This document shows positions 1 through 16,475 of a stretch of 27,438 bases of DNA, piece after piece. The position numbers and the translations under genes are program-made. Source of the DNA: a virus. Below the pieces are notes generated by a model. It had not been told where the DNA came from, ran no database searches, and saw nothing but the letters and a program-made list of their open reading frames with translations. The DNA is taken from the IMG/VR virus record IMGVR_UViG_3300025138_000270, positions 1-27,438 of that record. The stretch is one strand, 5' to 3'. Within the stretch, counting starts at the first letter, position 1, and every line of letters begins with the position of its first letter.

Positions 1-208
1 CATGAATATCTTTTCTAAGCTTGGCATAACCACTAGGACTATCTAATTCAACATGAGTGCGTATATGTTTCCTTAGCTCATCTTCATGCTTTGGAAATCT
101 TTTTATAATAGGCTGCAGAAACTTAGTAGGACTATGCTTTTTATCATTGGATTCTTTTGCTTTTTTTACAGCAAGCCCGTCTGCAAATTTACTAAAACTT
201 TTAACCAT
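1..208 (-). CDS. Partial hypothetical protein, N-terminal 69 residues, MVKSF start
   Basis: The reading frame opens with ATG at 208 and runs off the left edge with no stop, so only the N-terminus is visible. I do not recognise the family. The visible part is strongly basic (many Lys, Arg and His), with no signal peptide or membrane segment. It starts MVKSFSKFADGLAVKK, which recalls the MKSF/MKTF starts of the upstream genes, but it has no (L/I)xE within the first dozen residues, so it may not be a cleaved capsid-targeting peptide. It begins 23 nt after the stop of the CCA-adding enzyme gene. A perfect TATAAATA late-promoter box lies 35 nt upstream (243-250), inside the 3' end of that gene, which supports both the gene being real and late expression. 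A weak AAAGG precedes the start. Confidence 0.6.
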   Translation of the reverse strand, partial: MVKSFSKFADGLAVKKAKESNDKKHSPTKFLQPIIKRFPKHEDELRKHIRTHVELDSPSGYAKLRKDIH

Positions 209-231
209 ATTAAGTCTGCCTTTGTATTGCG

Positions 232-1437
232 TTATTTTATACTATTTATATGTTTTATCAAATCATCTTTACTACTTTTGCCAGTTCTAATTGAATAGTC
301 TAGTGCAGATTGTAATGCATCTCCAATAGCTTTACCTTTAAATCCAGCTTGTGCTACATCTCTGCCAGATATTGGCATATCTTTTATAGCAGTATATTTG
401 ATGCCTTTGAGTCGAGCCGAAGCTGATATTTTTTGTCCTATAGCTTTCAAATACATATCAGTCATTTTAATATCTGCATTCTGAGACCATTTAACTAATT
501 CAACGTTATCCATATTTTTCCAAGTGGCTATACTGTTGACTGCATTTACGTCGGTGTTAGATAATCTAAGTGCAGATTTTGCAACAGAACCAGCTTTTTC
601 TCCATAACTTTTTAACATAAGTGCAATGAATACTGGAAATGCATTTTTATCTAATCTATCAATTGCTTTCTTATCAATGCTACTTTGTCTAGCGTCTTTG
701 AAAATATGCTTCATAATACCTGAAGAAAACAAGATTTCTACTCCGTGACTGGGAGATTTAGATTTCTTAAATAGCTTTTTAAATTCTTCATTAAATCTGT
801 CGGCAGATATTGTTTTGATTGTAGAAGCTTGTTTCTTCATTTCTTTGAAAGTTTCTCTTTCAATCTTAAATTCAAATCTAGCTGCAAACTGAATGGCACG
901 TAACATTCTCAAAGGATCATCTTCAAATGATGTAGGGCTAATCATACGAATCTGCTTATTCTTAATGTCTTTCATACCCTTGCCATCAGTATCGATAATC
1001 TCTCCAGTATCAATATCTTTAGCAAGTTGATTTATCCAGAAGTCTCTCCGTAGCTGATCTTGTTGAAGTGTAATACCTTTACCAAGCTGTACTTCAAAGT
1101 CTTTATGACCAGAGCCTGTACTTTTAGAGTCGATACGGGGTACAGAAATGTCTATATCTTCTTCTTCTGTAGAACCTGTGGGTACAAATTTTAGAATACC
1201 AAAGGATTTACCCACCATATTCACTTTACCGTGAGGCTTTAATATTCTTTCTAAATCATTGAGTTCCACACCTACAACGATAAGATCCAAGTCTTTTGAA
1301 ACTTTACCTAGTAATTCATCACGAACTACACCGCCGATTTGGTAGATTTTACCACCAGCAGACTTTATACTTTTTCTCACTTCCATTGAAAGTATATCAA
1401 GCATACTTTCATTCAAATGACTTATAAAAGATTTCAT
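232..1437 (-). CDS. CCA-adding enzyme (class II tRNA nucleotidyltransferase) with capsid-targeting-like N-terminus
   Basis: This enzyme adds or repairs the 3'-terminal CCA of tRNA using CTP and ATP. The class II signatures are present in order: GGVVRD (about residues 35-40) with the metal-binding DLD (about 49-51), DIDIS (about 94-98), RRDF (about 130-133), DDPLRMLRAIQFAAR (about 173-187) and SADRF (about 211-215), followed by an all-helical C-terminal half. At 401 residues it is a normal full length. I chose ATG at 1437 (MKSFISHLNES) over a GTG two codons upstream: it forms a TAATG overlap with the stop of the previous gene and has GGAAG about 5 nt upstream. The first ten residues are not part of the nucleotidyltransferase fold and match the T4 internal-protein targeting peptide, with a gp21-type site LNE at 8-10. 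It could instead be a poly(A) polymerase of the same family, but the motifs fit CCA addition well. Confidence 0.9.
   Translation of the reverse strand: MKSFISHLNESMLDILSMEVRKSIKSAGGKIYQIGGVVRDELLGKVSKDLDLIVVGVELNDLERILKPHGKVNMVGKSFGILKFVPTGSTEEEDIDISVPRIDSKSTGSGHKDFEVQLGKGITLQQDQLRRDFWINQLAKDIDTGEIIDTDGKGMKDIKNKQIRMISPTSFEDDPLRMLRAIQFAARFEFKIERETFKEMKKQASTIKTISADRFNEEFKKLFKKSKSPSHGVEILFSSGIMKHIFKDARQSSIDKKAIDRLDKNAFPVFIALMLKSYGEKAGSVAKSALRLSNTDVNAVNSIATWKNMDNVELVKWSQNADIKMTDMYLKAIGQKISASARLKGIKYTAIKDMPISGRDVAQAGFKGKAIGDALQSALDYSIRTGKSSKDDLIKHINSIK
243..250 (-). promoter_or_regulatory. Putative late promoter for the left-edge gene
   Basis: Exact TATAAATA on the minus strand, 35 nt upstream of the ATG at 208, within the last codons of the CCA-adding enzyme gene. 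The surrounding AACATATAAATA is the same as at 3073-3080. AT-rich coding sequence raises the chance of coincidence, but the spacing fits. Confidence 0.55.
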
Positions 1438-1715
1438 TAGCACTTCCAGCGTTTTCTAGCTTGCCTTAAACGACTATTCGGATCTTTCGCAGCTTTTGGC
1501 CACATTTTTAACTGACCTGCGGATCTAGCGCAGTATGATTTGCGACGACCAGCATCTTTTGATCCTGGTTTAGGATTACCAGTAACTGCAGTTTTTAAAT
1601 TTCCACCAGTTTTTCTATTTACAGCATCAACGCCCTTTTGCGTCATACCTGCACCACTTTTAGTTGGGCGATAATGCTTATCTTTTTCAGATAAAAATGC
1701 GATAAAACTTTTCAT
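1437..1715 (-). CDS. Small basic protein with C-terminal CAR...PNSR...W.C motif (DUF6321-like), capsid-targeting-like N-terminus
   Basis: A 92-residue, Lys/Arg-rich protein of unknown function. The C-terminal half carries a compact motif that I associate with small proteins of many marine phages: YCAR (about 61-64), a Lys/Trp-Pro stretch, DPNSR (about 78-82) and a terminal W-K-C. Two cysteines sit at about 62 and 92. The family name DUF6321 is from memory and not verified. The N-terminus MKSFIAFLSEKD has the (L/I)xE site LSE at residues 8-10, exactly where T4 IPIII has IAE. High positive charge would suit a DNA-associated internal head protein. A strong ribosome binding site (AGGAG, 6 nt spacing) precedes ATG 1715, and the stop overlaps the CCA-adding enzyme start (TAATG). 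No catalytic motif is visible. Confidence 0.75.
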   Translation of the reverse strand: MKSFIAFLSEKDKHYRPTKSGAGMTQKGVDAVNRKTGGNLKTAVTGNPKPGSKDAGRRKSYCARSAGQLKMWPKAAKDPNSRLRQARKRWKC

Positions 1716-1724
1716 TTATTTCTC

Positions 1725-2072
1725 CTACCAGTGCTGTACATCTGGATATCTAACAATTGCTCGGATTGCTCTCACTGCTAGTTTTGCAGTCGGATCACCT
1801 CTATCATATAATACAACTTCTGTACCATTTACAAAATCAGATACGTTTACACCTTTACCTATAAGAGTCATTGTTCTGTGTAGATAATCGTTTTCATCAT
1901 AATTGTTTTCAAATCCTGCTTTACCTCTAACCTCAACCCACTTACTGCCTGGCAATGGTCGAATTCTTAGAATGCCCATTTTACCTTGCCTAATATATGT
2001 TAGAGCATAAGACTCTTTCTTTTTACGTTGATTTTTGGTCAATTCAGTTATGAAAGAAAAAAAAGTTTTCAT
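1725..2072 (-). CDS. Hypothetical protein with capsid-targeting-like N-terminus
   Basis: A 115-residue protein of a family I do not recognise. It starts MKTFFSFITELTKNQRKKKE: the first ten residues match the T4 internal-protein targeting peptide, with an (L/I)xE site (ITE) at residues 8-10, followed by a very basic linker. The remainder looks like a small beta-rich domain (alternating hydrophobics such as MGILRIRPLP and WVEVRGKAGF), followed by VVLYDRGDPTAKLAVRAIRAIV. No known catalytic motif, membrane segment or cysteine pair is seen. The start overlaps the stop of the HD-hydrolase gene (TAATG), implying translational coupling, and the next gene begins 9 nt downstream. Confidence 0.7.
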   Translation of the reverse strand: MKTFFSFITELTKNQRKKKESYALTYIRQGKMGILRIRPLPGSKWVEVRGKAGFENNYDENDYLHRTMTLIGKGVNVSDFVNGTEVVLYDRGDPTAKLAVRAIRAIVRYPDVQHW

Positions 2073-2620
2073 TAAACGTATTCCTTAATTTTTTTCTCAA
2101 TTGCTGAAATAATTTTATTATGAGTTTTACTTAGATATCTATCTTTTCTTAATTTTTTTATAGCTAAAGTAGTTTGTGCGGCATATTTCTTTTGAAAATC
2201 TTCTGGTCTAGTGTCAATATCTTGTACATTAGCGAGTCTGTCTGCTAACTTAACAACTAATGACCAACTGGACATTTTAGCCATTTTGTTTGCGATATAT
2301 TCACCTTTACCAATAGCATCAGAAGCAGCCTTATCTGTAGTCAATTCTTGAACCATATCAGCCACAAGAGCACCAAACTGCTTTACCAAATCTTCATAGG
2401 TAGTGTCGGTATCCTCAAGTGTGTCATGAAGATATGCTGCCTGTATTAGGGCAGATAGATTATTAGATTTTTTGAATTGTTTTACAAAACGCGCAACTTC
2501 TTTGGGATGATTTATATACTCACCACCACTCTTCCGAGTTTGTCCTTTATGGGCTTTTGTTGCAACCCTTAATGCTTTTAAAGCATTTTCGTTTAAAGTA
2601 TATGCGCTAAAACTCTGCAT
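2072..2620 (-). CDS. HD-domain phosphohydrolase, SpoT/MESH1-type small alarmone hydrolase-like, capsid-targeting-like N-terminus
   Basis: A 182-residue single-domain HD hydrolase of the ppGpp-hydrolase (RelA/SpoT HD, MESH1) group. The hallmark segments are all present: AHKGQTRKSGGEYINHP (about 23-39; metal His 24, invariant GQxRK and HP), HDTLED (His65, Asp66, Glu69, Asp70) and KLADRLANV (Asp127). No synthetase or regulatory (TGS/ACT) domain is attached, so it should only hydrolyse. Known substrates of the family are (p)ppGpp and, for some members, pyrophosphorylated tRNA 3' ends made by toxSAS toxins. The N-terminus MQSFSAYTLNEN lies before the HD fold and resembles the capsid-targeting tags of the next three genes, with LNE at 9-11 (one residue longer than the others). 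The start directly follows the regA stop (TAAATG). The fold call is firm; the substrate is not known. Confidence 0.85.
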   Translation of the reverse strand: MQSFSAYTLNENALKALRVATKAHKGQTRKSGGEYINHPKEVARFVKQFKKSNNLSALIQAAYLHDTLEDTDTTYEDLVKQFGALVADMVQELTTDKAASDAIGKGEYIANKMAKMSSWSLVVKLADRLANVQDIDTRPEDFQKKYAAQTTLAIKKLRKDRYLSKTHNKIISAIEKKIKEYV

Positions 2621-3031
2621 TTATTTTCTTCCAATATTATACTTGGGACATAACTCCCACTTGTCTTTATCTTTGAAAGGAATAATCTTAATTTGTCGCA
2701 GAGGTGCTAAATTTTCAGCTACCTTACCATTTTCTATTGTGACAAGTCCCCAGTCCGACATTAGTGTTGCTATTGTATTTCTTCTAGCTAAATCACTTTC
2801 TTCTATGTTTGACTTCTTACCGTCTAATAAAAATAGTTCCTTAAAATGTACTATAAAGTATCTACCTTGCTTGTGAAGGATATGACACGATTGAAATAGT
2901 TTGTTTTCTTTTCTACTTGATACGCCTATTCTTGTTAGTGTTTCTCTTACCTTTAAAAAATCATCAGGTTCATTCAGTGTAACTTCTAACATAGAATCAG
3001 GAGTCCAAGATACTATATTTGATTCTTCCAT
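2621..3031 (-). CDS. regA: RegA translational repressor of early mRNAs
   Basis: Homologue of T4 RegA, the RNA-binding protein that blocks ribosome loading on early mRNAs, including the clamp-loader and clamp genes lying just upstream here. The body aligns over nearly its full length with T4 RegA: MLEVTLNEPDDFLKVRETLT, QSCHILHKQGRYFIVHFKE, RRNTIATLMSDWGL and a C-terminal WELCPKYNIG. I start at ATG 3031 (MEESNI); an upstream TTG at 3037 is unlikely. This leaves a 13-residue N-terminal extension relative to T4. An internal ATG at 2992 (MLEVTL) would align exactly with the T4 start, but it has a poorer ribosome binding site. A TATAAATA box at 3073-3080 lies upstream, unusual for a gene expected to act early. 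The next gene (HD hydrolase) is directly adjoining. Confidence 0.95.
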   Translation of the reverse strand: MEESNIVSWTPDSMLEVTLNEPDDFLKVRETLTRIGVSSRKENKLFQSCHILHKQGRYFIVHFKELFLLDGKKSNIEESDLARRNTIATLMSDWGLVTIENGKVAENLAPLRQIKIIPFKDKDKWELCPKYNIGRK

Positions 3032-3072
3032 TGTCAACTCACTTTTTTGTTATATTCATTTTATGACAATGT

Positions 3073-3080
3073 TATTTATA
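3073..3080 (-). promoter_or_regulatory. Putative T4-type late promoter upstream of regA
   Basis: Exact TATAAATA on the minus strand in the 47-nt gp62-regA gap, about 42 nt from the regA ATG. The box matches the gp55-dependent late promoter sequence. It is the only such box between gp55 and the capsid-tagged gene cluster, so it could give that cluster late expression. Confidence 0.6.
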
Positions 3081-3084
3081 TGTT

Positions 3085-3462
3085 TTAGTTTTTGCCGCCT
3101 TTACGCAACTTAAATCTAATGTGATCTAGTTGTTCTTTTGGTAATAAACTAAGTGCTTCACGCGCTCTTTGATTATTATATCCATAATATTCTTTTATTA
3201 ATTCAAGATCATTGATTTTTTCAGCTTTAAACCACTTTGAAAATCTTTTTCGCTTTCTTACCAAAGTTCTCAATAGATCATATTGCATTCTTGCTGGAAT
3301 ATTATGTCTATAATTCATTTCATTTGCTAAGAGAATAGTATCGTTGAAATATGATAAACCTCTATTTACCATATAACTAGAATATTTCTTTTCTGCAATA
3401 TCATCTACCATAATATCATCTTTAGTAGTATTAATTGAATTCAGATAATCAAAGTGATTCAT
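3085..3462 (-). CDS. 62: Clamp loader small subunit gp62
   Basis: Homologue of T4 gp62, which with the gp44 ATPase forms the complex that loads the gp45 sliding clamp at primer-template junctions. It is 125 residues, much shorter than T4 gp62 (187), as I recall for marine T4-like phages. It starts MNHFDYLNSINTTKDD and has the conserved aromatic-rich MVNRGLSYFNDTILLANEMN segment and a basic KRKRFSKWFK stretch. There is no ATPase motif, as expected. The start overlaps the exonuclease stop (TAATG). In T4, genes 44 and 62 adjoin and are coupled; here a DexA-type gene sits between them. Confidence 0.88.
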   Translation of the reverse strand: MNHFDYLNSINTTKDDIMVDDIAEKKYSSYMVNRGLSYFNDTILLANEMNYRHNIPARMQYDLLRTLVRKRKRFSKWFKAEKINDLELIKEYYGYNNQRAREALSLLPKEQLDHIRFKLRKGGKN

Positions 3463-4073
3463 TAAAGTGCCTGTATAATTGTTTGCATTCTCATTACGTC
3501 CATTACAACATCATGTCTTGCGTCATGTGCAACAAACTTTTCTTTACAGCCCTCAGGAATGTAACTATTTCTTTGACCGCTGCCGTATAGTAGACCATCA
3601 AGAAAAGAACGTGTATCACGAACCATCCAAAAAGGATAAGGAACTGAATAACCTGTTTGTTTCATTATACCTTCCATAATAGGAATATCAAAAGTGTTTC
3701 CTCTACAGAATACAGTCTTTAAGTTGTTCATATTAACATTCAATACAAAGAAATTATACAGTTGAGAAATAGATTCGTCAAGTTCTAAATTTGGTTTTAG
3801 TACACTTTTTGCCTCTTCGCCTTGTTTATTCCACCAATCAAGTGTACTTTTTGAAACTTTTCTATTGTAATTCTTTACTTGATCTTCAACATCAAATTTC
3901 ATATACTTTGAATTTTCTAATAATTCGTCATATGAATAAGGAATGTCACCTATAAATCTTGTATCTGAATAACTAAGTAAACCAAGAGATAAAACTACCC
4001 CTTGGTTTACATCAACTGAAAGAGTTTCAAAATCAAAGATAACACAATTATCTAAGCCTTCATATGCAGCCAT
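3462..4073 (-). CDS. dexA: DexA-like 3'-5' exonuclease (DEDD superfamily)
   Basis: Homologue of T4 exonuclease A (DexA). Motif ExoI is DFET (Asp14, Glu16); an ExoII-like RGNTFDIPIM and an ExoIII AHDARHD (His183, Asp188) follow. Other DexA-like stretches are STLDWWNKQGEEAK and KFVAHD. It is about 203 residues against 227 in T4. The frame is open to an ATG at 4112, but I choose ATG 4073 (MAAYEGLD) because it makes a TAATG overlap with the gp44 stop, has GGAATGG just upstream, and puts the ExoI motif near the N-terminus as in the family. It probably degrades single-stranded DNA 3'-5'; a role in host DNA turnover or replication proofreading is inferred. Confidence 0.85.
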   Translation of the reverse strand: MAAYEGLDNCVIFDFETLSVDVNQGVVLSLGLLSYSDTRFIGDIPYSYDELLENSKYMKFDVEDQVKNYNRKVSKSTLDWWNKQGEEAKSVLKPNLELDESISQLYNFFVLNVNMNNLKTVFCRGNTFDIPIMEGIMKQTGYSVPYPFWMVRDTRSFLDGLLYGSGQRNSYIPEGCKEKFVAHDARHDVVMDVMRMQTIIQAL

Positions 4074-5035
4074 TATAACCATTCCACTTCTGCCATAAGA
4101 GTTGTGAGACAAGCAACAGTATTTATTTCGATATCCGCAACAAATGCCGCCTTGTATTGATATTCAGCTAAAGTTAAAACAACTTGAGGAATACTACGAG
4201 GATTTACATTATCTTGCATAGTATCATATATCGATCTAAATATTGCTGAGGTGTCGGTATCAATATTATTTGCTACCCACTGTTTCATTTTTTTAAAGTC
4301 TTTTTCTTTTAAATGCTTTATGAGAGTGCTACTTTCACCCAAACTAGAATTAGTAATACCGTTAGTACTAAGTATACCACCCACAGATCGTCTTTGGATT
4401 TCATTGAGTACTCTTCTCCAATCTGGCGCATGTTTAGAAATAATTGTTGCAACATCTTTATCTGCCCATTTTACATTTTGATCTTCTAAGATACTTCTTA
4501 CATTCTGTAGCATTTGACCACATAGTTCTGCCATAACTTTCTTACTTGTATTAAATTCATATACACCACATCTAGAATGAAGTGGTTCAATAATACGATT
4601 CTTAAAATTACAAGTAAGAATGAAACGACAGTTATTACTAAATTCTTCTATAAATCCACGCAATGCAGGCTGCGTAGATTGTGCGTTTAGATAATCTGCT
4701 TCATCAAGAATAACTACCTTGTAGCCACCCTGTAAAGATACTGTAGATGCAAACTGTTTAATTTTACCACGCAAGGTGTCAATATTGCCTTCTTCAGAAC
4801 CATTTACAATTATGTAATCTAAATTCATTTCATTACATAATGCTTTGGCAACAGTAGTTTTGCCAAGACCAGCAGTGCCTGTAAATAACATATTAGGCAA
4901 CTCACCAGTCTTGACAATATCTTTAAAAGTTTTCTTCAGATCATTTGGTAGGATAGTTCTAGCGATAGTTTGTGGTCTATAACGTTCAACCCACAAAAAT
5001 TCATTGTCCAGCTTGCGCTGTTTTTCTACGTTCAT
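4073..5035 (-). CDS. 44: Clamp loader ATPase subunit gp44
   Basis: AAA+ ATPase of the sliding-clamp loader, homologous to T4 gp44 (319 aa; here 320). Visible motifs are the N-terminal LWVERYRPQTI typical of clamp loaders, Walker A GTAGLGKTT (about 53-61), Walker B VVILDEAD (about 107-114), sensor 1 around ILTCNF (about 139-144) and the SRC arginine-finger motif (about 154-156). It works with gp62 to open and load gp45. The 3' end overlaps the exonuclease start by one nucleotide, so translation is probably coupled. AAGGA lies about 11 nt before the start. Confidence 0.97.
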   Translation of the reverse strand: MNVEKQRKLDNEFLWVERYRPQTIARTILPNDLKKTFKDIVKTGELPNMLFTGTAGLGKTTVAKALCNEMNLDYIIVNGSEEGNIDTLRGKIKQFASTVSLQGGYKVVILDEADYLNAQSTQPALRGFIEEFSNNCRFILTCNFKNRIIEPLHSRCGVYEFNTSKKVMAELCGQMLQNVRSILEDQNVKWADKDVATIISKHAPDWRRVLNEIQRRSVGGILSTNGITNSSLGESSTLIKHLKEKDFKKMKQWVANNIDTDTSAIFRSIYDTMQDNVNPRSIPQVVLTLAEYQYKAAFVADIEINTVACLTTLMAEVEWL

Positions 5036-5061
5036 AATATAATTCTATCCTTGTTAAACGA

Positions 5062-5262
5062 TTACTCTGCTTCGGCTTGCTCTTGCTTCCAGTTTTCTAC
5101 AATCTGCACACCTTGAGTACATTGATCACGCAGTTGTCCAATCGTTGAAAGTTCTTCACCGCGAAAGCCACCTCTTTGTGTTACAGTGTCGATTACAGCA
5201 ATTGCACTACGAGAGATTTGATTCATAAGGTCGTATGCTTTTTTGTGTTGATCATCAGCCAT
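5062..5262 (-). CDS. Small hypothetical protein between clamp and clamp loader genes
   Basis: A 66-residue soluble protein with no family I can name. It reads as mostly helical: an acidic N-terminus, central SAIAVIDTVTQRGGFRGEEL, and a hydrophilic Gln/Glu-rich tail (WKQEQAEAE). There is no cysteine, signal or membrane segment. It starts 5 nt after the gp45 stop and has GGAGA about 9 nt upstream. T4 has the small RNA-polymerase-binding protein RpbA on the other side of gp45, but I see no similarity to it. The position inside the replisome operon suggests a replication or transcription accessory role; that is context only. Confidence 0.7.
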   Translation of the reverse strand: MADDQHKKAYDLMNQISRSAIAVIDTVTQRGGFRGEELSTIGQLRDQCTQGVQIVENWKQEQAEAE

Positions 5263-5267
5263 TAATA

Positions 5268-5957
5268 TTATTCTCCATAAGTTGATGTTTTTTCAAGTGC
5301 AATCCAATATTGCAGCCCGTTAGTCGAATTCGTTAGTTTTGAGATTTTTTGTGAAGAAATCTCGACTTCATAGTTACCAGTTAAAATCTTCAAATTGTTA
5401 ATGTTATATATGAACTTGTATGTAGCATTTGGAGAAGTCGCTGGAATTTCGATAGAAAAAGTATTTGCTGTTGCGTTTTCTGATGTAGTAACAGTAATCT
5501 TTGCCAACTTATCGGATACACCTTCAATAATTAATTCGGTGTGACCCAATGCAGATGCCGCAGCTTTTAACTTTTGTAGTACACCTTCATCTAAATCAAA
5601 TTTAACTTCACCTTCTGGCATTCTAACATCTTTACCAGCTTTTGTCAACATGTCTGTATCTGAAAAGAAATATTTAATATTAGCTAAACCAGATGCATCT
5701 GAAATAGTTACAAAATTCTCTTGAAAATTGAGTGTTGGTTTGTTCTCAGGGCTATCTACCAAATTGATAACTCCAAGAAATTCATTCAGGTCATAGATAC
5801 CAAATTCTTGATCAAAAGTTTCTTCAACATCAATTTTTGCTAGAATATTCTTAGCTTCTGAGATTGTCCTGATAGTGTTTCCAGTATCGATTACAATATT
5901 GCTATTAATCGATGCAAAGTTTTTCAATACAGAAATAGTATTATCTGATAGTTTCAT
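5268..5957 (-). CDS. 45: DNA polymerase sliding clamp gp45
   Basis: Homologue of T4 gp45, the trimeric processivity clamp that is also the mobile activator of late transcription through gp55 and gp33. The start MKLSDNTISVLKNFASIN aligns closely with T4 MKLSKDTTALLKNFATIN, YDLNEFLGVINLV matches T4 YDLNGFLGILSLV, and NINNLKILTGNYEV matches the C-terminal clamp fold. It is 229 residues against 228 in T4. I chose ATG 5957 over one four codons upstream because GGAGA lies about 6 nt before it and the alignment begins there. A sigma70-like promoter (5986-6014) lies immediately upstream, so clamp expression has its own entry point. Confidence 0.97.
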   Translation of the reverse strand: MKLSDNTISVLKNFASINSNIVIDTGNTIRTISEAKNILAKIDVEETFDQEFGIYDLNEFLGVINLVDSPENKPTLNFQENFVTISDASGLANIKYFFSDTDMLTKAGKDVRMPEGEVKFDLDEGVLQKLKAAASALGHTELIIEGVSDKLAKITVTTSENATANTFSIEIPATSPNATYKFIYNINNLKILTGNYEVEISSQKISKLTNSTNGLQYWIALEKTSTYGE

Positions 5958-5985
5958 TTTAGTCTCCATTATGTATATCTACTGC

Positions 5986-6014
5986 ATTATATCAAATATG
6001 CAGGAAAGAGTCAA
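5986..6014 (-). promoter_or_regulatory. Sigma70-like promoter upstream of gp45
   Basis: On the minus strand, TTGACT (6014-6009), a 17-nt spacer and TATAAT (5991-5986), lying in the 50-nt gap between gp46 and gp45. The predicted transcription start falls about 20 nt before the gp45 ribosome binding site. Eleven of twelve consensus positions match. It would boost clamp, clamp loader and regA transcription independently of gp55-47-46. Confidence 0.75.
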
Positions 6015-6019
6015 TAGGT

Positions 6020-7729
6020 TTATTTAATTTTACTGAAATTTTTATCTTTATAAAATTCTAACTTGTCTACAAATTTACCATCTAATATCTCACCTTTATG
6101 GGAAATGACAAAAACATTAGTATCATCATCCAGAGTATACAGTATTTTCATCAGATTGTCAACCCCTTCATGGTCAAGAGAAGAGTCAAAGGTTTCATCC
6201 AATATCAATAAATTTGTAGCTACGGAATTTTTCATCTTGGCAATCTGACGCCAAGTGAATAGAAGTGCTAAATCAATGCGTTGTTTTTCTCCTTCACTAA
6301 ACGAATCATATGAAAATGCATCACGGTGCCTTGACCGTATAGTTTCTTGAAAGCTTTCATCAAGATCAAAATGAACAAAAAAGTCTAGCGTTTGCAGATA
6401 CTGGTTTACTAGATGATTTATTACTGGTAGATACTGTTTTATTACTTTAGTTTTGATGCCCGTATCTTTTAACATTTCTGTCATTACCTGATTATATAAT
6501 AGATTTTCATTTAATCCATAACCAGATTCTTTTATAGAGCTTTGTTCATCGGAAAGTACTTGTAGTTCTTCATTAGCCTTTGTCAGATCCCCATCAGATT
6601 TTTTAGTCAGTTCGTCTTGATAAGATTGTATCTGTCTTTGGAGCCTGTTGATCGTATTATTGTTAGAAGATACAGCGGACAACTTCTGTCGGATGTTTTC
6701 TGCCAACTCAGTATACCGTCCAATAGTCTGTTCCACAATAACCGACTCTTTAAGTCCATGGTCCATTGCTTCTTTAAGCTCTTTTGCTTTCTTTTGTGCA
6801 GTATCAAGGTTGTTTGATCTGAGTACTGGATCAATACTCTGGGTACAAGTTGGGCACGTTTCGTTTTGCTCATAGAATTTCGCTTCTTTAACCAAGACTT
6901 TGATTTTGGTTTGAAACTGCGCTTGATATTGGAGTAATGCTTGTTTTTTATCATTTGCACGATCTAACTCCTCTTGCATTGTTTTTTGATTTTCATCTAT
7001 AAAATTTTGACATACTTCATTATCTTTTTCTAAGTCCATTATTTCAGAATTCAGATTAGATATATCGATTTTCTTTTTTTCTATAAAGCCTTCATTCAAT
7101 GTGGTTATATCACCAATATATTTCTTTTGCGTATCAATCTTATTAGATAATAAATCAAGATTATACTTAACATCTTTAATCTTTGCTTTTAATTCTGAAG
7201 TTTTTTCTTTCAATAATTGGTTCATCTTTGAAAAAATATTGATATCTAACAAATCTTCAATAACATCACGCCTATGTTGTGCTGGCAACTGCATAAATGG
7301 AATGAACGAACTACTACCTAATACAACAATCTGATGAAAAGATTTGTGGTTTAGCTTCAAAATATTCTGTTCTAATATTTTTTGATATTCTTTAGCGTGT
7401 GAAGATTGATCAAACATATTGCCGTTTTGATATATTTCAAATAGTGTAGGTTTGATTCCTCTTACAACTTTAAAATGATTAGAACCAACAGTAAATTCAA
7501 CTTCTACAATACAATCTCGATTATTGATAGAGTTTACTAGCTGAGGTTTGTTGATATTACGATGTGGTTTACCAAACAATGCAAATGATACTGCATCAAG
7601 CATTGTAGATTTACCTGCACCATTTGAGCCAACAATCAATGTGGACTTGGCTTTGTTTAAGTTAATATTAGTCCAATTATCACCAGTTGATAGGAAATTC
7701 TTGTACTTTAGAGATTTAAATAATATCAT
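6020..7729 (-). CDS. 46: Recombination exonuclease subunit gp46 (Rad50/SbcC-like ATPase)
   Basis: SMC-type ATPase homologous to T4 gp46, which with gp47 resects DNA ends for recombination-dependent replication and helps degrade host DNA. Domains in order: N-terminal Walker A GSNGAGKST (about 34-42), a long heptad-rich coiled coil (about 165-290), zinc hook CPTC (about 292-295), the returning coiled coil (about 305-400), ABC signature SFSEGEKQR (about 476-484) and Walker B LLILDE (about 507-512). It is 569 residues against 560 in T4, so full length. The start overlaps the gp47 stop (ATGA), giving coupled synthesis of the two subunits. Confidence 0.97.
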   Translation of the reverse strand: MILFKSLKYKNFLSTGDNWTNINLNKAKSTLIVGSNGAGKSTMLDAVSFALFGKPHRNINKPQLVNSINNRDCIVEVEFTVGSNHFKVVRGIKPTLFEIYQNGNMFDQSSHAKEYQKILEQNILKLNHKSFHQIVVLGSSSFIPFMQLPAQHRRDVIEDLLDINIFSKMNQLLKEKTSELKAKIKDVKYNLDLLSNKIDTQKKYIGDITTLNEGFIEKKKIDISNLNSEIMDLEKDNEVCQNFIDENQKTMQEELDRANDKKQALLQYQAQFQTKIKVLVKEAKFYEQNETCPTCTQSIDPVLRSNNLDTAQKKAKELKEAMDHGLKESVIVEQTIGRYTELAENIRQKLSAVSSNNNTINRLQRQIQSYQDELTKKSDGDLTKANEELQVLSDEQSSIKESGYGLNENLLYNQVMTEMLKDTGIKTKVIKQYLPVINHLVNQYLQTLDFFVHFDLDESFQETIRSRHRDAFSYDSFSEGEKQRIDLALLFTWRQIAKMKNSVATNLLILDETFDSSLDHEGVDNLMKILYTLDDDTNVFVISHKGEILDGKFVDKLEFYKDKNFSKIK

Positions 7730-8787
7730 GTAATTTCTAGTGCCTGTGCTTCAGTCAATAAATTTCTCATTTCAATTTTAATCCTGCTTTTATCCAACTC
7801 AGTATCTACAGATTCAACATAACTATCAAGTAATGTTGTAGTATCTTCTACAGATACTCCTTCATCACCCACGCGCTCACCCATAAATTCTTCAAAGTTT
7901 TCACTTATCTTTAATTCATGGATATTCTTAGCATGTATTCTATCACAAAATTTGTCAAATGTAAAGGGGTCTTGTTTATTAACTACTACTACCTTGACGA
8001 ATTTATGATCAATATGATTGAGAGAATAATTATTATAATCAGTTCTGGTATCGTCATATACTATCTTTTCAAATAATGTGAATGGATTAACAATAGCCTC
8101 GATTTCTCTTGTTTCAGTGTCTAGCACATGAAAGTGTTTAGGATCATGGGCATCAGACCAGAAAAATTCCATTTGAGTACCGAGATACATGATATTATCT
8201 TGTTGAGATTTGGTATGAAAGTGACCAGATAGAACTAACTCAAATCTAGAAAATTCTTCTTTCGACATGCCATGGGTATTTTTAATGCCACGCATCATAT
8301 CAAAACCATTTAGTTCTAAGTGTCCACCAAGTATAGATGCTTTACAATTTTTAACAAAGTTCATAGACTCTGAATGATTTTCACTTGTAATCCATGGTAG
8401 TAATGCAATGTCAAGACCGCCATAATTCATAACAGTAGGTTTCATAATTATATGAACTTCATTCATATAGTGACCTAGCAATTCTTTCAATGAATTTAAT
8501 TCATTTGTATTTTTAAAATATGTATCATGATTGCCAGGTATGATATCCATAGTCATGCCGCGTTCACGCATAGGATTTAAAAAACTCTTGCGATTGTGAG
8601 TTAGTGCTTTAAAATTAATAAATTTACGATGGTCATAATAATCGCCCAGATGTAATATCTGTTTTATACCGTGCGCGTCACAGTATGGAAACATTATCTC
8701 AGAATAAAATTTACTAGCGTTTTCTAAGAATATATCCGAGCTATTTCTGATACCTGTATGAGTATCATTTATGATTAGTAATTTCAT
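7726..8787 (-). CDS. 47: Recombination nuclease subunit gp47 (Mre11/SbcD-like)
   Basis: Metallophosphoesterase nuclease partner of gp46. The metal-binding motifs are present in order: NDTHTG (Asp8, His10), LGDYYD (about 47-52), PGNHD (about 84-88), GGHLE (about 154-158) and SGHFH (about 187-191). The total of 353 residues is close to T4 gp47 (339). The C-terminal part lacks these motifs and probably binds gp46. ATGA overlaps occur at both ends: with the gp55 stop at its start and with the gp46 start at its end, so gp55-47-46 is one coupled unit. Confidence 0.97.
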   Translation of the reverse strand: MKLLIINDTHTGIRNSSDIFLENASKFYSEIMFPYCDAHGIKQILHLGDYYDHRKFINFKALTHNRKSFLNPMRERGMTMDIIPGNHDTYFKNTNELNSLKELLGHYMNEVHIIMKPTVMNYGGLDIALLPWITSENHSESMNFVKNCKASILGGHLELNGFDMMRGIKNTHGMSKEEFSRFELVLSGHFHTKSQQDNIMYLGTQMEFFWSDAHDPKHFHVLDTETREIEAIVNPFTLFEKIVYDDTRTDYNNYSLNHIDHKFVKVVVVNKQDPFTFDKFCDRIHAKNIHELKISENFEEFMGERVGDEGVSVEDTTTLLDSYVESVDTELDKSRIKIEMRNLLTEAQALEIT

Positions 8788-9377
8788 ATTAAAAAGTCTT
8801 TCAAATCAGAATCAACATTGACAGTTCTTTTCTTTCGTTGTTTTTCCTTTTTAGCAAATTCTTTCATGGAAGTATCTGTCTCTTTTACCTTGTCTATTCT
8901 ATCTTTTAAAACATCAATGAAATGTGTGGCCACTGAGGCTCCAGCTTCTCCTTGTTCGGTTACAAGAAATGCTTCTATACCTGATTGTGATAAATATTTT
9001 TCTTTTATATCTTGTTGGCGTTTTTCTTTTGCAATTCTTCTTAAAAATGCATACCAAATTATCTGAGTGAAATAAGCAAATGCATTTGGATTACCTGAGC
9101 GTGTAGCTGCATTGATATTATAATTTTCAACAGCTTTTAAACAGTTTTCTACCGCGTCCATTACCATTTCTTCACGGTAAGTATATCTAATAAAATTAGA
9201 CTTATGCGATAGATTCTCTGCAATTTTCAAAAAACATGCTGCCAAATAGTTAGGAACTATAGGCAAAGATTCTTTATTTTCTCTAGCTGTATTAATTGTT
9301 TTTACATATTCCACTATATTGTGAGAAAATTCTTTATTATCCACATAATGGGTACTCTTAGATTTCTTCTTTGCCAT
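8784..9377 (-). CDS. 55: Late-transcription sigma factor gp55
   Basis: Homologue of T4 gp55, the minimal sigma factor that directs host RNA polymerase to TATAAATA late promoters. The N-terminal THYVDNKEFSHNIVEYVKTI resembles T4 NYVNNKELLQAIIDWKTEL, and the segment from NPNAFAYFTQIIWYAFLRRI through KEKR corresponds to the region-2-like core. The C-terminus SDLKDFLI matches the hydrophobic/acidic tail that binds the gp45 clamp in T4. I start at ATG 9377 (MAKKKSK, 197 aa) because AAGGAG sits about 6 nt upstream; a further in-frame ATG at 9398 has no such site. A perfect-consensus sigma70 promoter lies directly upstream. The six TATAAATA boxes listed here are its likely targets. Confidence 0.95.
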   Translation of the reverse strand: MAKKKSKSTHYVDNKEFSHNIVEYVKTINTARENKESLPIVPNYLAACFLKIAENLSHKSNFIRYTYREEMVMDAVENCLKAVENYNINAATRSGNPNAFAYFTQIIWYAFLRRIAKEKRQQDIKEKYLSQSGIEAFLVTEQGEAGASVATHFIDVLKDRIDKVKETDTSMKEFAKKEKQRKKRTVNVDSDLKDFLI

Positions 9378-9400
9378 AATCACTCCTTCATAATACATAC

Positions 9401-9429
9401 ATTATATCACATATTTTATTTCTTGTCAA
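9401..9429 (-). promoter_or_regulatory. Consensus sigma70 promoter for gp55
   Basis: Minus strand TTGACA (9429-9424), 17-nt spacer, TATAAT (9406-9401): all twelve hexamer positions and the spacing are consensus. The start of transcription would fall just before the gp55 ribosome binding site. The -35 hexamer is one arm of a 9-bp inverted repeat shared with a divergent promoter. Confidence 0.88.
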
Positions 9430-9450
9430 CCGTCTTTTATGGGTTGACAA
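9423..9450. repeat. 9-bp inverted repeat holding both divergent -35 boxes
   Basis: TTGTCAACC (9423-9431) and GGTTGACAA (9442-9450) are perfect inverted copies separated by 10 bp. Each arm contains a TTGACA -35 hexamer, one per strand. The symmetry could simply follow from two consensus boxes, or it could be an operator for a dimeric regulator. Confidence 0.8.
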
Positions 9451-9471
9451 ATCCTAAGAATCTGTTATAAT
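9444..9471 (+). promoter_or_regulatory. Plus-strand consensus sigma70 promoter, antisense to the 150-aa gene and uvsW
   Basis: TTGACA (9444-9449), 16-nt spacer, TATAAT (9466-9471). Both hexamers are perfect. No plus-strand gene with a ribosome binding site follows; the transcript would run antisense into the 150-aa gene and uvsW. The -10 box lies in the loop of an 8-bp inverted repeat (9456-9480). Confidence 0.65.
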
Positions 9472-9480
9472 AAGATTCTT
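9456..9480. repeat. 8-bp inverted repeat around the plus-strand -10 box
   Basis: AAGAATCT (9456-9463) and AGATTCTT (9473-9480) are perfect inverted copies with a 9-nt loop containing TATAAT. In the minus direction it forms an AT-rich hairpin just after the 150-aa gene, without a following T-run, so it is a poor intrinsic terminator. An operator overlapping the promoter is possible. Confidence 0.7.
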
Positions 9481-9500
9481 CTTAGTGAGTGGGGTAGTAA

Positions 9501-9953
9501 CTAGTGTTTAGTTCCAGATGGAAACGTTATCACATTTTGATCTGAATCATATATATCTACTAATTTCTCTTTTAAGCCCAATCTTTCCATCCAACTAGAT
9601 GCATCTAGATATCCAATGTCATCTTGACTAGTATCATCTGCAGCTATTGCATTTAGATACTGTTCCATAACCTCTTCACTTGGAATACATTTTACTATAA
9701 TATGTTGGGGATTTAAAGAAGCTATATTATTTTTATGAACATCTTGAAAAGAAACCCAAGGATCAAGTGTACAGAATAGTTTGTTTTCTGAAACTCTAAC
9801 TTTAGTTATACTAAGACAGTTTCTAACAATTACTTCAAATTCATCATCAATTTCTTCTTCCATTAAGTCTTTAGGAATATCAATCATCTCACAAAGAATT
9901 TCTTCACCGTTGGTAAGTTTTAACTGTAGAATATTGTTTTTTCTTATATTCAT
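9501..9953 (-). CDS. Conserved-looking unknown after uvsW, possible Sm-like fold
   Basis: A 150-residue acidic, cytosolic protein. I recognise its type of position (following uvsW in marine T4-like phages) but not its function. The N-terminus NILQLKLTNGEEILCEM resembles the first strands of LSm/Hfq-like folds (a hydrophobic strand, then NGEEI), and the middle continues with beta-type patterns such as VIVRNCLSI and HIIVKCIP. The C-terminal third is acidic and probably flexible (DDTSQDDIGYLDASSWMERLG). The start overlaps the uvsW stop (ATGA). No catalytic motif is visible. The Sm-like idea rests on pattern only and needs a profile or structure comparison. Confidence 0.65.
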   Translation of the reverse strand: MNIRKNNILQLKLTNGEEILCEMIDIPKDLMEEEIDDEFEVIVRNCLSITKVRVSENKLFCTLDPWVSFQDVHKNNIASLNPQHIIVKCIPSEEVMEQYLNAIAADDTSQDDIGYLDASSWMERLGLKEKLVDIYDSDQNVITFPSGTKH

Positions 9954-11901: not shown

Positions 11902-11920
11902 TTAACTCTCCATAATATAA

Positions 11921-12446: not shown

Positions 12447-12447
12447 C

Positions 12448-13152: not shown

Positions 13153-14499
13153 TTATGAACTTACCAGAAGATCGTCTACACGGAAAATTCTGTAGTATTG
13201 GTTAGTTCTAGCGTTTGCGAGTCCATCAGATGCAGTTGCACCAACAAATGGGTTCGATACCATGCCATAACGAGTTTTGAAACCAATTTTTGGCTGGAAG
13301 CTATCCTCAGCAACGGCGCGAACCATTGTGAGAGGTACGTATGGGCAATAGAAGATACCAGCATCATATGCGTTAGTACCTTTATAACCTACGGTGATAT
13401 AGTCTACAACAGCATATGGATCAATATATACTTTTGTGCGACCATTAAGAACACCAGCAAATGTATTGCCAGTATCATCTACATTCAGGTTGTCTTTCAA
13501 CGCTGGTGCATAATCAAGCATACCAGTTGCAGACAATGCAGAAGCAACGTCCGAAGATGTAATGATAAAGTTACCACGACCTCTACGAGTTTCTTTTGCA
13601 ATTGTATTTGCTTCACGCTCGATTTGAACCATGAGACCTTTAAACTTCTCAACGCTCCAACGACCGTCTGCATCTGTGTTCAGGTTAAATGCACCATTCA
13701 GTGCAGTGTTTCCTGTAGAAGCACCAGTTTTAGCTTGGCTGTTGATCGAACGGATAACTTCGCGGTTAATCTCTGCAAGAATTTCAGTTGAAAGAATGTT
13801 AGCCAGTTCGCTTTCAGCGTCCAGACCATGAATTGCTTTCAAATCTTGTGCGAGTTCAAGCGAATATTCCGCTTTCAATGCGCGTGTTTTCGCAACAACT
13901 TGTGCTTTATCAATGGTGAAACCCATTTCATTAAACGCAGGCGAACCCCCGCCAGTGCCAAGTGCTTCGCCAGCTGCCAGAGACATACCAACACCAGTCA
14001 GAGGATCATTACGATCATCATCAAGGCCAGCTGCGCCAGCATTAGTAACGCCGTTGAAACCAGAACCGTCTGTGCTGTGAATGCCAGCGGATTCACCTGA
14101 GAATGCATGACCTGCTTCATTGAACAGGGCTTCTCCGCCATCAGTTTGACCGTTGGCTGTTGTACGATATGTGGACTTCATTGCAAAGATCAGGCCAGTT
14201 GGACCAGTCATTGGCTGAACACCACATACGTCATATGCCATCATGTTAGGCATAGCACGACGAACAAGCGAAATTAGAATTGGATCCCAATTTTGTACGT
14301 TTGCACCTGTTGAGTTGGTTGGTGCGGCTTCGCTCAATTCACCGAAACCGGTCATTTGTGCGCGTTGCTCCATGAGAGCTTTTTCTTGGTTTTCAAGCAC
14401 AACAGCGGTAACCGCTTTACGGTGCTTGTCTTGGATATTACCGGCTGATTCTTCATTCAGAACCGGTGCCCACTTTTCTACGAGTTGATTGTATTGCAT
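13153..14499 (-). CDS. 23: Major capsid protein gp23
   Basis: Forms the hexamers of the head shell. The 448-residue product aligns with T4 gp23 (521): N-terminal LVEKWAPVLNE, LENQEKAL (T4 FENQEKDF), VRRAMPNMMAYDVCGVQPM (T4 VRRAIPNLIAFDICGVQPM) and GPTGLIFAMKSTY. The N-terminal propeptide ends at GELSE before Ala58, matching the T4 gp21 cleavage site FLTE/A, so mature gp23 should begin AAPTNS. This site also calibrates the protease specificity of the phage. AAGGAG lies about 10 nt before ATG. The gene looks richer in GC than its neighbours, as expected for a highly expressed gene. No TATAAATA box directly precedes it; it is probably read from the gp67 late promoter. Confidence 0.97.
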   Translation of the reverse strand: MQYNQLVEKWAPVLNEESAGNIQDKHRKAVTAVVLENQEKALMEQRAQMTGFGELSEAAPTNSTGANVQNWDPILISLVRRAMPNMMAYDVCGVQPMTGPTGLIFAMKSTYRTTANGQTDGGEALFNEAGHAFSGESAGIHSTDGSGFNGVTNAGAAGLDDDRNDPLTGVGMSLAAGEALGTGGGSPAFNEMGFTIDKAQVVAKTRALKAEYSLELAQDLKAIHGLDAESELANILSTEILAEINREVIRSINSQAKTGASTGNTALNGAFNLNTDADGRWSVEKFKGLMVQIEREANTIAKETRRGRGNFIITSSDVASALSATGMLDYAPALKDNLNVDDTGNTFAGVLNGRTKVYIDPYAVVDYITVGYKGTNAYDAGIFYCPYVPLTMVRAVAEDSFQPKIGFKTRYGMVSNPFVGATASDGLANARTNQYYRIFRVDDLLVSS

Positions 14500-14513: not shown

Positions 14514-15605
14514 TTAGTTAGCTTTTAGGGCAGCAATATATTGCGCCATACTAGAAGAAACATCTACTTGATTAGTATCTTCATTAGTTTCTTCGGTAAG
14601 CGTTTCTTCAACAATTGCTGCTGGCGTTTCCGCTTCGCTTTTTGTTGAAAAATACGACTCTTTAATGGTTTCGATTTTGAACGCAAATGTTTCTTCGTTC
14701 TCAAAATCTACACCTTCAGCCAGTTTTAGTAATTTTGCAGCTTGTGTTTCAGCAAGATCCTTAGACGCTTCTGTAATAATCATACTACGCTTAAGGTTAT
14801 TTACTTTTTCATTCATTGCAACATTATTGGCGGTTTCTGCATTCAAAAGTCCTTCTAGGTCTTGGACTTCTTCAGCAAGTTGGTCAACTAGATCAACTTT
14901 GGATTCTGGTACTTCAATATAAGACTCAGTAAACAGGTCTTTCAACTTGCTCATGAAACCTTCTGCAATTTCAGTACGAATACCTTGCTCAACAGCAAGT
15001 CTATTCTCTTCCATCCAATTTTCGACTACATAGTTGAGATAAGAATCCATTTTGTCTACCAAATCAACTTTGGCTTCTTCAATCGATTCTTCTGTCTCGG
15101 TAGCAAACTGCTCCTCAAGACTCTCGATTTTTGCAGCAAATTCTTCGTCTAATTCTGAAACTTTAGTTGCAACACGATTGTTAATTGCAGCTTCAAAAAG
15201 TACGCTTGCCTTTGCTTTAAAATCTTCACTTAGAGACTCATCTTCAGAAATCATGACTTCCAATTCGTCTTTTGTGGTATCTTCCACAATAGCTTCCTCA
15301 TCATCCAATTCAACTTCTTCTTCCATTACACTTGCGTACAATGATTGTAGTTGAATTTTCGTCATTCCTTCTGCTTTTGCTGCCATAGCAGCTTTCATTC
15401 CCGCTTTAGTTTTAGGCGGAGATGCTTTTTTAGTTTTACCGGCAGCGGCTTTTACAGACGCGACCGAATCATCTTCACTTGGAGGCGTAGTCATGGTCGA
15501 TGGTTTATCGCCCATAGGTTCGCTTCTTTCGTTTAGATAATCTTCGTGAGATTCCACAATTTCGTTGTCATCATGGATCTCAAGTTCCTGGTTTTCATCA
15601 GTCAT
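14514..15605 (-). CDS. 22: Prohead core scaffold protein gp22
   Basis: Internal scaffold around which gp23 assembles and which gp21 later degrades. It is a 363-residue, highly acidic, almost entirely helical and coiled-coil protein with many gp21-type sites. The N-terminal 75 residues are low complexity (acidic, then an Ala/Lys-rich stretch SPPKTKAGMKAAMAAKAEG); long Glu-rich helices follow, with TEASKDLAETQAAKLLKLAEGV similar to the conserved C-terminal part of gp22 proteins. It is longer than T4 gp22 (269) because of the N-terminal extension and a Thr/Glu-rich region (about 325-350). Position between gp21 and gp23 is the standard one. AAAGGAG lies 6 nt before the start. Confidence 0.93.
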   Translation of the reverse strand: MTDENQELEIHDDNEIVESHEDYLNERSEPMGDKPSTMTTPPSEDDSVASVKAAAGKTKKASPPKTKAGMKAAMAAKAEGMTKIQLQSLYASVMEEEVELDDEEAIVEDTTKDELEVMISEDESLSEDFKAKASVLFEAAINNRVATKVSELDEEFAAKIESLEEQFATETEESIEEAKVDLVDKMDSYLNYVVENWMEENRLAVEQGIRTEIAEGFMSKLKDLFTESYIEVPESKVDLVDQLAEEVQDLEGLLNAETANNVAMNEKVNNLKRSMIITEASKDLAETQAAKLLKLAEGVDFENEETFAFKIETIKESYFSTKSEAETPAAIVEETLTEETNEDTNQVDVSSSMAQYIAALKAN

Positions 15606-15620: not shown

Positions 15621-16271
15621 TTATTTAAGCAACGAGAGGAAATTTTGAAACCCACGAACTTGTGCTTCCACAAGTGAGCGTGAAGATGTTTTCTTAATTT
15701 CAGTCTCTATTTTTTCAATGTCTTGTGATTCAATCAAACCATTATTCCATACCCATTCTACGCCTTCCATTATTCCATTAACAAAAGCTCCAGGCGCTGA
15801 CGGATCTTGAACAATGTCAACGGTGTTGAGTTGAAAATCATTCCCAACCTCCATTATTCCATTCTGTTTTACAAGACTTCCCATACCACGAGTCGAAACA
15901 CCTAGTTGAACACCACCATCAAGCAAGCCTTTTACAACTTTACCCATAGGAGTATCTAATATAAGTGCCTTACCCATCACATTACTTTCATCAAATTTCA
16001 TTTCCGTAATACGATGGGATACCTTATCCAAATTAACAGTGGGTCCTTCTGGATGATTTAACTCACCTACAGCACGACCAGTATTAACTTGTTCTGATAT
16101 ATATTTTTCAACGGCAGGCTTCATTACTTCCATTCTATAAATTCTGCCGTTTCTATTTGGTTGATCGGCTTGTGCAAATACACCTTCGATCTGATAAGAC
16201 TTTTCGCCATTTGCCTTTGCTTCGGTGACTAGATGTATATCATGATCACAATATTCTGCGATTAGTTTCAT
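15621..16271 (-). CDS. 21: Prohead core protease gp21
   Basis: Serine protease that matures the prohead by cutting after (L/I)xE in scaffold, internal proteins and gp23. The 216-residue product (T4 212) shows IEGVFAQADQPNRNGRIY (T4 IEGIFMQAEVVNRNKRLY), GELNHPEGPTVN with candidate catalytic His73, GVSTRGMGSL with candidate nucleophile Ser126, and DIVQDPSAPGAFV. Its presence, with a recognisable gp23 site, is what makes the capsid-targeting peptides at 232-2620 testable within one genome. AAGGG precedes ATG. It sits between the 66-aa core protein and gp22. Confidence 0.96.
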   Translation of the reverse strand: MKLIAEYCDHDIHLVTEAKANGEKSYQIEGVFAQADQPNRNGRIYRMEVMKPAVEKYISEQVNTGRAVGELNHPEGPTVNLDKVSHRITEMKFDESNVMGKALILDTPMGKVVKGLLDGGVQLGVSTRGMGSLVKQNGIMEVGNDFQLNTVDIVQDPSAPGAFVNGIMEGVEWVWNNGLIESQDIEKIETEIKKTSSRSLVEAQVRGFQNFLSLLK

Positions 16272-16274: not shown

Positions 16275-16475
16275 TTATCCCTTATTCTTAAACTGTTTAA
16301 TAAATTCTTTTGCCATAGTAATTGCTTCTTTTTCAGATTCATAATCGTCCAAATGTTCTCCATCAATAGAAGCTTTAAATCTGTTACCAGATTTAGTTAC
16401 AACAATTTTGCTTTTGCCAACCATAACATTTTTTTCTACGACTAAATTTTTTATTAAATCTTTAAAAGTTTTCAT
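16275..16475 (-). CDS. Small prohead core protein, positional gp68 equivalent
   Basis: A 66-residue basic protein with an N-terminal segment MKTFKDLIKNLVVEKN of the MKTF type seen in the tagged proteins, then a small beta-alpha unit (KIVVTKSGNRFKASIDGEHL, EAITMAKEFIKQF). The Glu lies at position 14 in LVVE and so does not match the (L/I)xE at 8-10 of the others. T4 has gp67, gp68 and gp21 in this order, so by position it is a gp68-like prohead core component; direct sequence similarity to T4 gp68 (141 aa) is not evident. It starts 14 nt after the acidic gp67-like gene. Confidence 0.65.
   Translation of the reverse strand: MKTFKDLIKNLVVEKNVMVGKSKIVVTKSGNRFKASIDGEHLDDYESEKEAITMAKEFIKQFKNKG

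Follow-up and report, generated by a model that had tools for sequence, protein, structure and literature searches.

Internal proteins that carry an N-terminal capsid targeting sequence (CTS) are known from phage T4 and other T-even phages, where their genes have been found by that signal (PMC12373910; papers given here by PMC number are cited from excerpts of their text). In the CTS of T4 IPIII, targeting is reported to depend on residues 4 and 7 and processing on residues 8 and 10; the T4 prohead protease gp21 cuts after L/I-x-E (PMC9026906). T4 also carries an enzyme in its head and ejects it, the ADP-ribosyltransferase Alt (PMC9026906), which is compared here as cargo. Enzymes occur in cyanophage virions as well, namely a SAM hydrolase, APH/ChoK-like kinases and NMNAT-like enzymes including a cytidylyltransferase in S-CREM2, S-SCSM1 and S-SM1; the literature leaves open whether they are cargo or contaminants, and the available excerpts on these three phages mention no loading signal. 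Here we describe four consecutive minus-strand genes, at positions 232-2620 of the IMG/VR virus record IMGVR_UViG_3300025138_000270, whose products begin with tag-like sequences in front of unrelated bodies. The record, referred to below as the window, comprises 27,438 bases and comes from an uncultured marine T4-type phage that is Kyanoviridae-like.

Leaders of this kind resemble those of T4 IPI, IPII and IPIII in occupying the first ten residues, in standing as one tag before unrelated bodies and in sharing a genome with a gp21-type protease. Like IPII and IPIII in particular, they have aromatic residues at positions 4 and 7, I or L at position 8 and E at position 10. They differ from IPII and IPIII in that the marine leaders have F rather than Y at position 4, as in IPI (which starts MKTFKEF in the T4 record), and often H or Y at position 7. 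The cargo differs too, since outside the T-even phages it includes enzymes of known fold. We consider it probable that these leaders are CTSs of the T4 internal-protein type, that is, a swappable tag which in this phage and many relatives would load proteins into the prohead, be cut by gp21 and leave its cargo to be ejected. Such a tag would make it possible to tell from sequence what a marine T4-type phage loads into its head, and would explain the puzzling presence of SAM hydrolase, kinases and NMNAT-like enzymes in cyanophage virions. It would also point to many further cargo families, including a CCA-adding enzyme and an alarmone-type hydrolase. A CTS rule for marine Kyanoviridae-like phages, applying to enzymes and accounting for the cyanophage virion enzymes, appears to be undescribed in the open-licence literature searched: CTS together with cyanophage led to a T4 review naming cyanophage once, and CTS together with marine T4-like to the term in a reference list only.

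Four consecutive proteins bear leaders in front of unrelated bodies

The four N-termini were found on the minus strand exactly where a preliminary description of the window had placed them (Table 1); the span that it gave, 1437-2620, covers three of the genes and omits the body of the CCA gene (232-1437). The 401-residue protein has the PolyA_pol head and RNA-binding neck domains, as in a class II CCA-adding enzyme, and is predicted by these domains to be one. Its sequence also contains GGVVRD and DLD motifs, which we take to be typical of CCA-adding enzymes. The HD protein has an HD_4 fold, and its sequence contains HDxxED and KxADRxxN motifs, which presumably mark a small alarmone hydrolase of the MESH1 kind, and it is probably a stress-signal hydrolase. 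The 115-residue protein had no match in Pfam, PHROG or our phages collection, and its structure model, of moderate confidence, gave no PDB fold match at E <= 0.001.

The leader was said to precede the known fold in both enzymes, and this is what the Pfam domains show, starting at residue 32 in the CCA enzyme (PolyA_pol head) and at residue 16 in the HD protein (HD_4); the DUF6321 domain starts at residue 22 of the 92-residue protein. The view that this is a shared leader and not a sign of common ancestry was borne out by the unrelated bodies and by positions 2, 3, 5, 6 and 9, which vary more than positions 4, 7, 8 and 10. The start MKTYQEFIAE of T4 IPII and IPIII was confirmed from the T4 record, and counting on the sequence located the LSE attributed to gp23 in front of Ala58 (Table 1). 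As for the [LI]xE site, it lies at residues 8-10 in three of the proteins and at 9-11 in the HD protein, as described; the LNE of the HD protein turned out to be body sequence (see below), and of the four predicted cuts the one before its Asn12 is the least certain. In the structure model of the CCA enzyme, residues 1-12 have a predicted local distance difference test (pLDDT) score below 50, which may fit a free leader, weakly so because some other stretches of the model are equally low.

Table 1. Leader-bearing proteins and head genes of the window, with tagged proteins of two relatives
Source	Feature	Position	Strand	Leader or evidence
Window	Next gene of run, truncated by window edge	2..208	-	MVKSFSKFADG, degenerate leader: F-x-x-F, no [LI]xE
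Window	Predicted CCA-adding enzyme / tRNA nucleotidyltransferase, 401 aa	232..1437	-	PF01743 1.1e-18, PF12627 1.8e-13; PDB 4wby 1.2e-21
Window	Leader of CCA-adding enzyme, residues 1-10	1408..1437	-	MKSFISHLNE; predicted cut after E10
Window	DUF6321 protein, 92 aa	1437..1715	-	PF19846 3.3e-11
Window	Leader of DUF6321 protein	1686..1715	-	MKSFIAFLSE
Window	115-aa protein, function not assigned	1725..2072	-	Model pLDDT 72.7
Window	Leader of 115-aa protein	2043..2072	-	MKTFFSFITE
Window	HD_4 protein resembling MESH1 / small alarmone hydrolases, 182 aa	2072..2620	-	PF13328 5.2e-17; PDB 3nr1 1e-17, 5vxa MESH1 1e-16
Window	Leader of HD protein	2588..2620	-	MQSFSAYTLNE; LNE common to body
Window	gp23 major capsid protein	13153..14499	-	PF07068 4.7e-146; LSE at residues 55-57, before Ala58
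Window	gp22 scaffold	14514..15605	-	PF25623 1.1e-60
Window	gp21 prohead protease	15621..16271	-	PF03420 1.5e-36
Window	66-aa protein at gene-68 position, directly before gp21	16275..16475	-	
Window	Leader-like start of 66-aa protein	16434..16475	-	MKTFKDLIKNLVVE
S-CREM2	ORF6 SAM hydrolase			MKDFDSFLEE; virion-detected
S-CREM2	ORF14 APH/ChoK-like kinase			MKRFDAFLTE; virion-detected
S-CREM2	ORF154 cytidylyltransferase			MKNFSSFLTE; virion-detected
G008	Tagged 87-aa protein			MKSFVEFIGE; HNH_3 by homologue in L133
G008	Tagged 281-aa protein			MKRFNSYLDE
G008	Tagged 314-aa protein			MQNFKSYLSE

The leader motif is enriched at the N-termini of T4-type phage proteins

The motif M[KQRELI]xF, two non-Pro residues, [FYHILMW][ILVTM]xE was fixed before S-CREM2 and S-SCSM1 were examined. 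In the window it matches 3 of 32 open reading frames (ORFs), compared with 0.01 expected from shuffled N-termini, the HD protein being the sole one of the four tagged proteins that it misses. Enrichment of the tag at N-termini, which the preliminary description had proposed as a check, was evident across 18 T4-type records: the motif stands at the N-terminus of 44/3,337 ORFs (9,101 candidate starts; ORFs were self-called, and every ATG, GTG or TTG up to 40 codons from the first one counted as a possible start) and at 0/12,793 internal methionines. The 44 matches are not a count of independent events because the records overlap in kind (the window and its relative G008 are near-identical over 16 kb, and G001 and G005 share tagged genes) and seven of the 18 were reached via homologues of tagged proteins, the window itself being an eighth. 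Ten named genomes, eight taken from the gp23 match list and two (T4 and P-SSM2) chosen by hand, gave 16 matches in 2,382 ORFs. gp21 was detected in 17 of the 18 records; none was found in G005, a fragment.

In 328 sequences, made up of the window and 327 loci, clustering by body sorts the tagged proteins into 35 groups. Some of these clusters are due to chance or merged (in cluster 0, families have been joined by chaining), and many members are overlapping loci of one contig. Named clusters include the CCA enzyme, the HD protein, DUF6321, DUF6267, an HNH_3 protein, an ADP-ribosyltransferase-like protein and a cytidylyltransferase.

A rival explanation is coincidence or a common start-site bias, under which many phage proteins would start M-K-[ST]-F and neighbouring genes would stem from duplication; a few of the motif matches are evidently due to chance. 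We give this explanation next to no probability. Shuffling N-terminal residues yields 0.01-0.10 matches per record against up to 6 observed, and no ORF out of 1,026 matches in HTVC010P-type control loci (the 80 best of at least 598, which were classed as unrelated to T4 on the basis of the head gene that served to select them). Moreover, the bodies of the four proteins of the window are unrelated, and one and the same body bears leaders of differing sequence and spacing among its homologues. The motif set as a whole already speaks against coincidence, which may still account for single matches.

The least variable leader positions are those mapped in the T4 signal

Homologues of 11 tagged families were gathered by body alone, and ten residues were read from the nearest suitable ATG with no motif filter; 35 of the 427 homologue hits were dropped for want of an ATG 8-22 codons before the body, as were alignments starting late in the body. 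With DUF6321 set aside, the remaining ten families gave 102 distinct leaders, in which the least variable of columns 2-10 were 4, 7, 8 and 10 (F at 4 in 86 leaders, Y/F/H at 7 in 87, I/L at 8 in 74 and E at 10 in 76). The agreement with the four mapped CTS positions, together with the virion proteomes of relatives presented below, supports the T4-type capsid targeting originally proposed for the window. Among the 135 distinct leaders that had been preselected by the motif, the hydrophobic moment was 0.54, compared with 0.32 after shuffling.

Within families the pattern is sharper in some cases. F4, H7, L8, N9 and E10 are fixed in all 7 distinct leaders of the CCA homologues. In the 115-residue family (8 distinct leaders), F4, T9 and E10 are invariant, position 7 is F or Y and position 8 is I or L, and the tagged bodies are 86-100% identical, whereas positions 3, 5 and 6 of the leader vary with hardly any constraint. 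The leader of the HD body differs among homologues in both sequence and spacing (MKSFKRYIAEDTLNENAL, MESFKQYISEETETLNESAL, MKSFKSHMLNESAL, MQSFSAYTLNENAL); in the window it has T at position 8 and E at 11. LNE[NS]AL is conserved in the HD body, even behind a complete leader (MKSFKRYIAEDTLNENAL), and since LNE is kept where a complete leader precedes it, the LNE of the HD protein is not the tag's own. Judging from these sequences, leader change over a steady body should match the evolution expected of a detachable tag. For DUF6321, four of the 67 viral homologues read (80 fetched) start with another leader-like sequence and the rest without one. Of at least 595 DUF6321 loci, the best 80 were compared with 16 core proteins of the window to see whether tagged copies are confined to T4-type phages, and none had a match at E <= 1e-8.

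Leader-bearing enzymes of relatives are found in virions

The virion proteome of S-CREM2 comprises 52 proteins identified by mass spectrometry, with their coordinates printed (PMC10665884). The fixed motif matches 3 of the 219 coding sequences of this phage, and all three products are among the 52 virion proteins (Fisher p 0.013). The authors list four detected non-structural proteins besides two endolysins (PMC10665884), three of which are the matching ORF6, ORF14 and ORF154; in the fourth, ORF12, which is annotated Cas9, residues 17-25 read LRFASFMAE. Near-motif starts were seen on two further detected proteins, ORF13 (MKDLHSFLTE) and ORF136 (MQTFSMFFSE). A looser motif gave 7 matches in S-CREM2, 5 of them detected (p 0.009), a value that is not independent because this motif was written after viewing the N-termini of 34 detected S-CREM2 proteins.

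For S-SCSM1 the analysis covered a 50-kb stretch, in which the fixed motif matches 1 of 75 coding sequences (a count that excludes the cut gp23 coding sequence), and this is one of 9 labelled virion proteins (p 0.12 alone). The match is the NMNAT ORF91, MKSFLQFLKE, which carries a virion label in the record and has been reported in virions (PMC9602691). GC190 of S-SM1, detected in purified virions (PMC3037559), starts MKKFSAFLNE, and was the only S-SM1 protein tested; GC190 of P-SSM2 and the S-SM2 homologue are also tagged. The same leader is thus borne by the SAM hydrolase, the APH/ChoK-like kinase and the NMNAT/cytidylyltransferase enzymes of cyanophage virions. The motif is absent from 49/52 virion proteins of S-CREM2 and from 8/9 of the S-SCSM1 stretch; the tag thus singles out a subset, which is what one would expect of cargo. 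Loading into the prohead is supported by these relatives.

Leaders that are amphipathic might also act as N-terminal helices targeting a membrane, the host polymerase or a replication complex, in which case presence in virions would be carry-over, a caveat that the authors themselves raise for virion enzymes. This appears very unlikely to us: all four motif matches in the two proteomes are virion proteins, compared with 61/294 coding sequences overall, and the conserved positions coincide with those mapped in the CTS, E10 among them, for which a membrane helix would have no need.

In several virion enzymes the leader is immediately followed by a second small module (LGL..DGHG.WYD.. and similar forms), which may be a head-related domain common to otherwise different enzymes; these enzymes include S-SCSM1 ORF91 (L499:32819-34048), P-SSM2 GC190 (L315:18143-19417) and S-CREM2 ORF12 and ORF14 (L334). 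Another stretch, SLSR...DKGG.A.MSA.R.DKS, follows the leader in S-CREM2 ORF6 (L334:3837-5081) and in a short unknown protein (L321:12221-12739, AG-345-L05). The genes of S-CREM1 177 (L500:32282-32611), which starts MKSYKQFLSE, and of the virion-detected S-CREM2 ORF136 (L336:7301-8014) each lie one or two genes behind the terminase small subunit gene.

A possible route into and out of the head

In the proposed mechanism, residues 1-10 would form a short amphipathic stretch, the hydrophobic side of which (F4, the aromatic residue or His at 7, and I/L at 8) would bind the gp22 scaffold core of the prohead. Tag-bearing enzymes and small proteins would in this way be built into the prohead, where gp21 would cut after [LI]-x-E and free the cargo; the latter would leave with the DNA and could act before phage genes are expressed. 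The sequence is consistent with trimming by gp21 here, because gp21, gp22 and gp23 are present and [LI]xE is kept. That the leaders bind gp22, that they are cleaved in this phage, and that the cargo is ejected into the host and active there are inferences, ejection of the tagged proteins being extrapolated from T4.

A leader-like start was also seen on the protein at the gene-68 position (Table 1). Its counterparts begin MKTFNELKESLLTE in G007 (L296) and MKTFKELKENLLIE in G010 (L305), and in phage C48C1 a like start occurs at a GTG upstream of the annotated start; such a start precedes gp21 in 4 of 8 T4-type neighbourhoods examined besides T4. In part of the group, therefore, a head-operon protein bears the same kind of leader. 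Its presence in the window and three relatives would suit tagged proteins that are targeted to the head and stay there, as scaffold-associated assembly enzymes or trapped proteins, and detection in virions does not prove delivery. We nevertheless hold retention to be unlikely, given that T4 proteins with such a leader are injected (PMC12373910, PMC9026906) and that a CCA-adding enzyme and an alarmone-type hydrolase would have no evident role in head assembly.

Observations that do not fit

A number of observations weigh against reading the leaders as capsid targeting sequences. HTVC008M, Mosig, DLP6 and G003 have zero matches to the fixed motif although each encodes gp21, and in 80 gp23-centred loci the matches (3/1,007 ORFs) are as rare as in the control loci, because tagged runs mostly lie elsewhere. 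In T4, the fixed motif misses IPI-III (Y at 4, or T/S at 8-10), its sole match being gp61.1. Some motif matches are due to chance, such as a glycosyltransferase whose Pfam match runs from residue 2. When DUF6321 is added to the leader set (148 leaders), the four lowest columns become 3, 4, 8 and 10, and each of the six families reported singly departs from 4, 7, 8 and 10 by at least one column in its lowest four (4, 7, 9 and 10 in the 115-residue family; 4, 5, 7 and 10 in the HD family). The residue after the predicted cut varied. At the gene-68 position, Melnitz-3, HTVC008M, Mosig and G002 have no leader, and neither does T4 gp68. The virion data cover tagged proteins of other families in relatives, rather than this phage or its near relatives. 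Finally, the authors of the S-CREM2 and S-SCSM1 studies allow for carry-over of enzymes after CsCl purification (PMC10665884, PMC9602691).

Two observations concern T4 counterparts. T4 gp61.1 (L330:1467-1631, minus strand, 54 residues, function unknown) starts MKTFKEFIKE, a full motif match, and may be an unrecognised T4 internal protein. In the related locus L198, a tagged protein (983-1924, plus strand, MLRFKSFITE) with an ADP-ribosyltransferase match is perhaps the counterpart of the packaged T4 Alt.

The tagged run in relatives and the possible role of its cargo

G008 (L298) is 96-98% identical to window positions 1-16,311, and there the run continues beyond the window edge with a small degenerate-leader gene after the CCA gene and then three more tagged genes (Table 1); a frame like that of the truncated gene of the window is open in this relative. 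Among 20 contigs with the CCA gene, counted by name and including one that begins inside this gene, 16 also have the HD gene and 19 the 115-residue protein gene. Together, the HD protein, the 115-residue protein and the CCA enzyme make up a conserved module of tagged proteins.

The toxSAS defences pyrophosphorylate tRNA CCA ends, and a phage small alarmone hydrolase removes this mark (PMC11559606); CapRel SJ46 pyrophosphorylates tRNAs upon binding a major capsid protein (PMC9712102). By its description, PaSpo of phage SSU5 resembles the HD protein as a phage-borne small alarmone hydrolase with reported removal of the toxSAS tRNA mark, and differs in that the available excerpt of PMC11559606 mentions neither a packaging tag nor virion presence. 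It is conceivable, though on balance doubtful, that the phage packages, and delivers with its DNA, a kit for the repair of tRNA 3' ends, in which the HD protein would strip pyrophosphate from tRNA CCA ends or degrade toxSAS/CapRel-type alarmones and the CCA enzyme would rebuild the ends. If this were true, both enzymes would arrive before a toxSAS/CapRel-type defence can halt translation. Simple control of alarmones, or maintenance of tRNA, would fit as well.

Gene neighbourhood of the window

The minus strand of the window reads terminase, sheath, tube, portal, gp21, gp22, gp23, UvsW, gp55, gp47, gp46 and the clamp with its loaders, followed by the tagged run. The names of gp21, gp22 and gp23 come from Pfam; those of the other T4-type genes follow from gene order and from comparison with the annotated relative C48C1. 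Judged by gp23, C48C1 is the nearest phage of the phages collection (66% identity), and in it genes other than the HD gene occupy the HD position. Two long insert genes, at 18026-22351 and 16836-18029 (minus strand; 1441 and 397 residues), lie between portal and gp21. Both look fibre-like by eye, and their location within the head gene cluster is unusual. The 1441-residue protein has a DLRLKENL stretch near its end, which we would liken to chaperone-type fibre ends.

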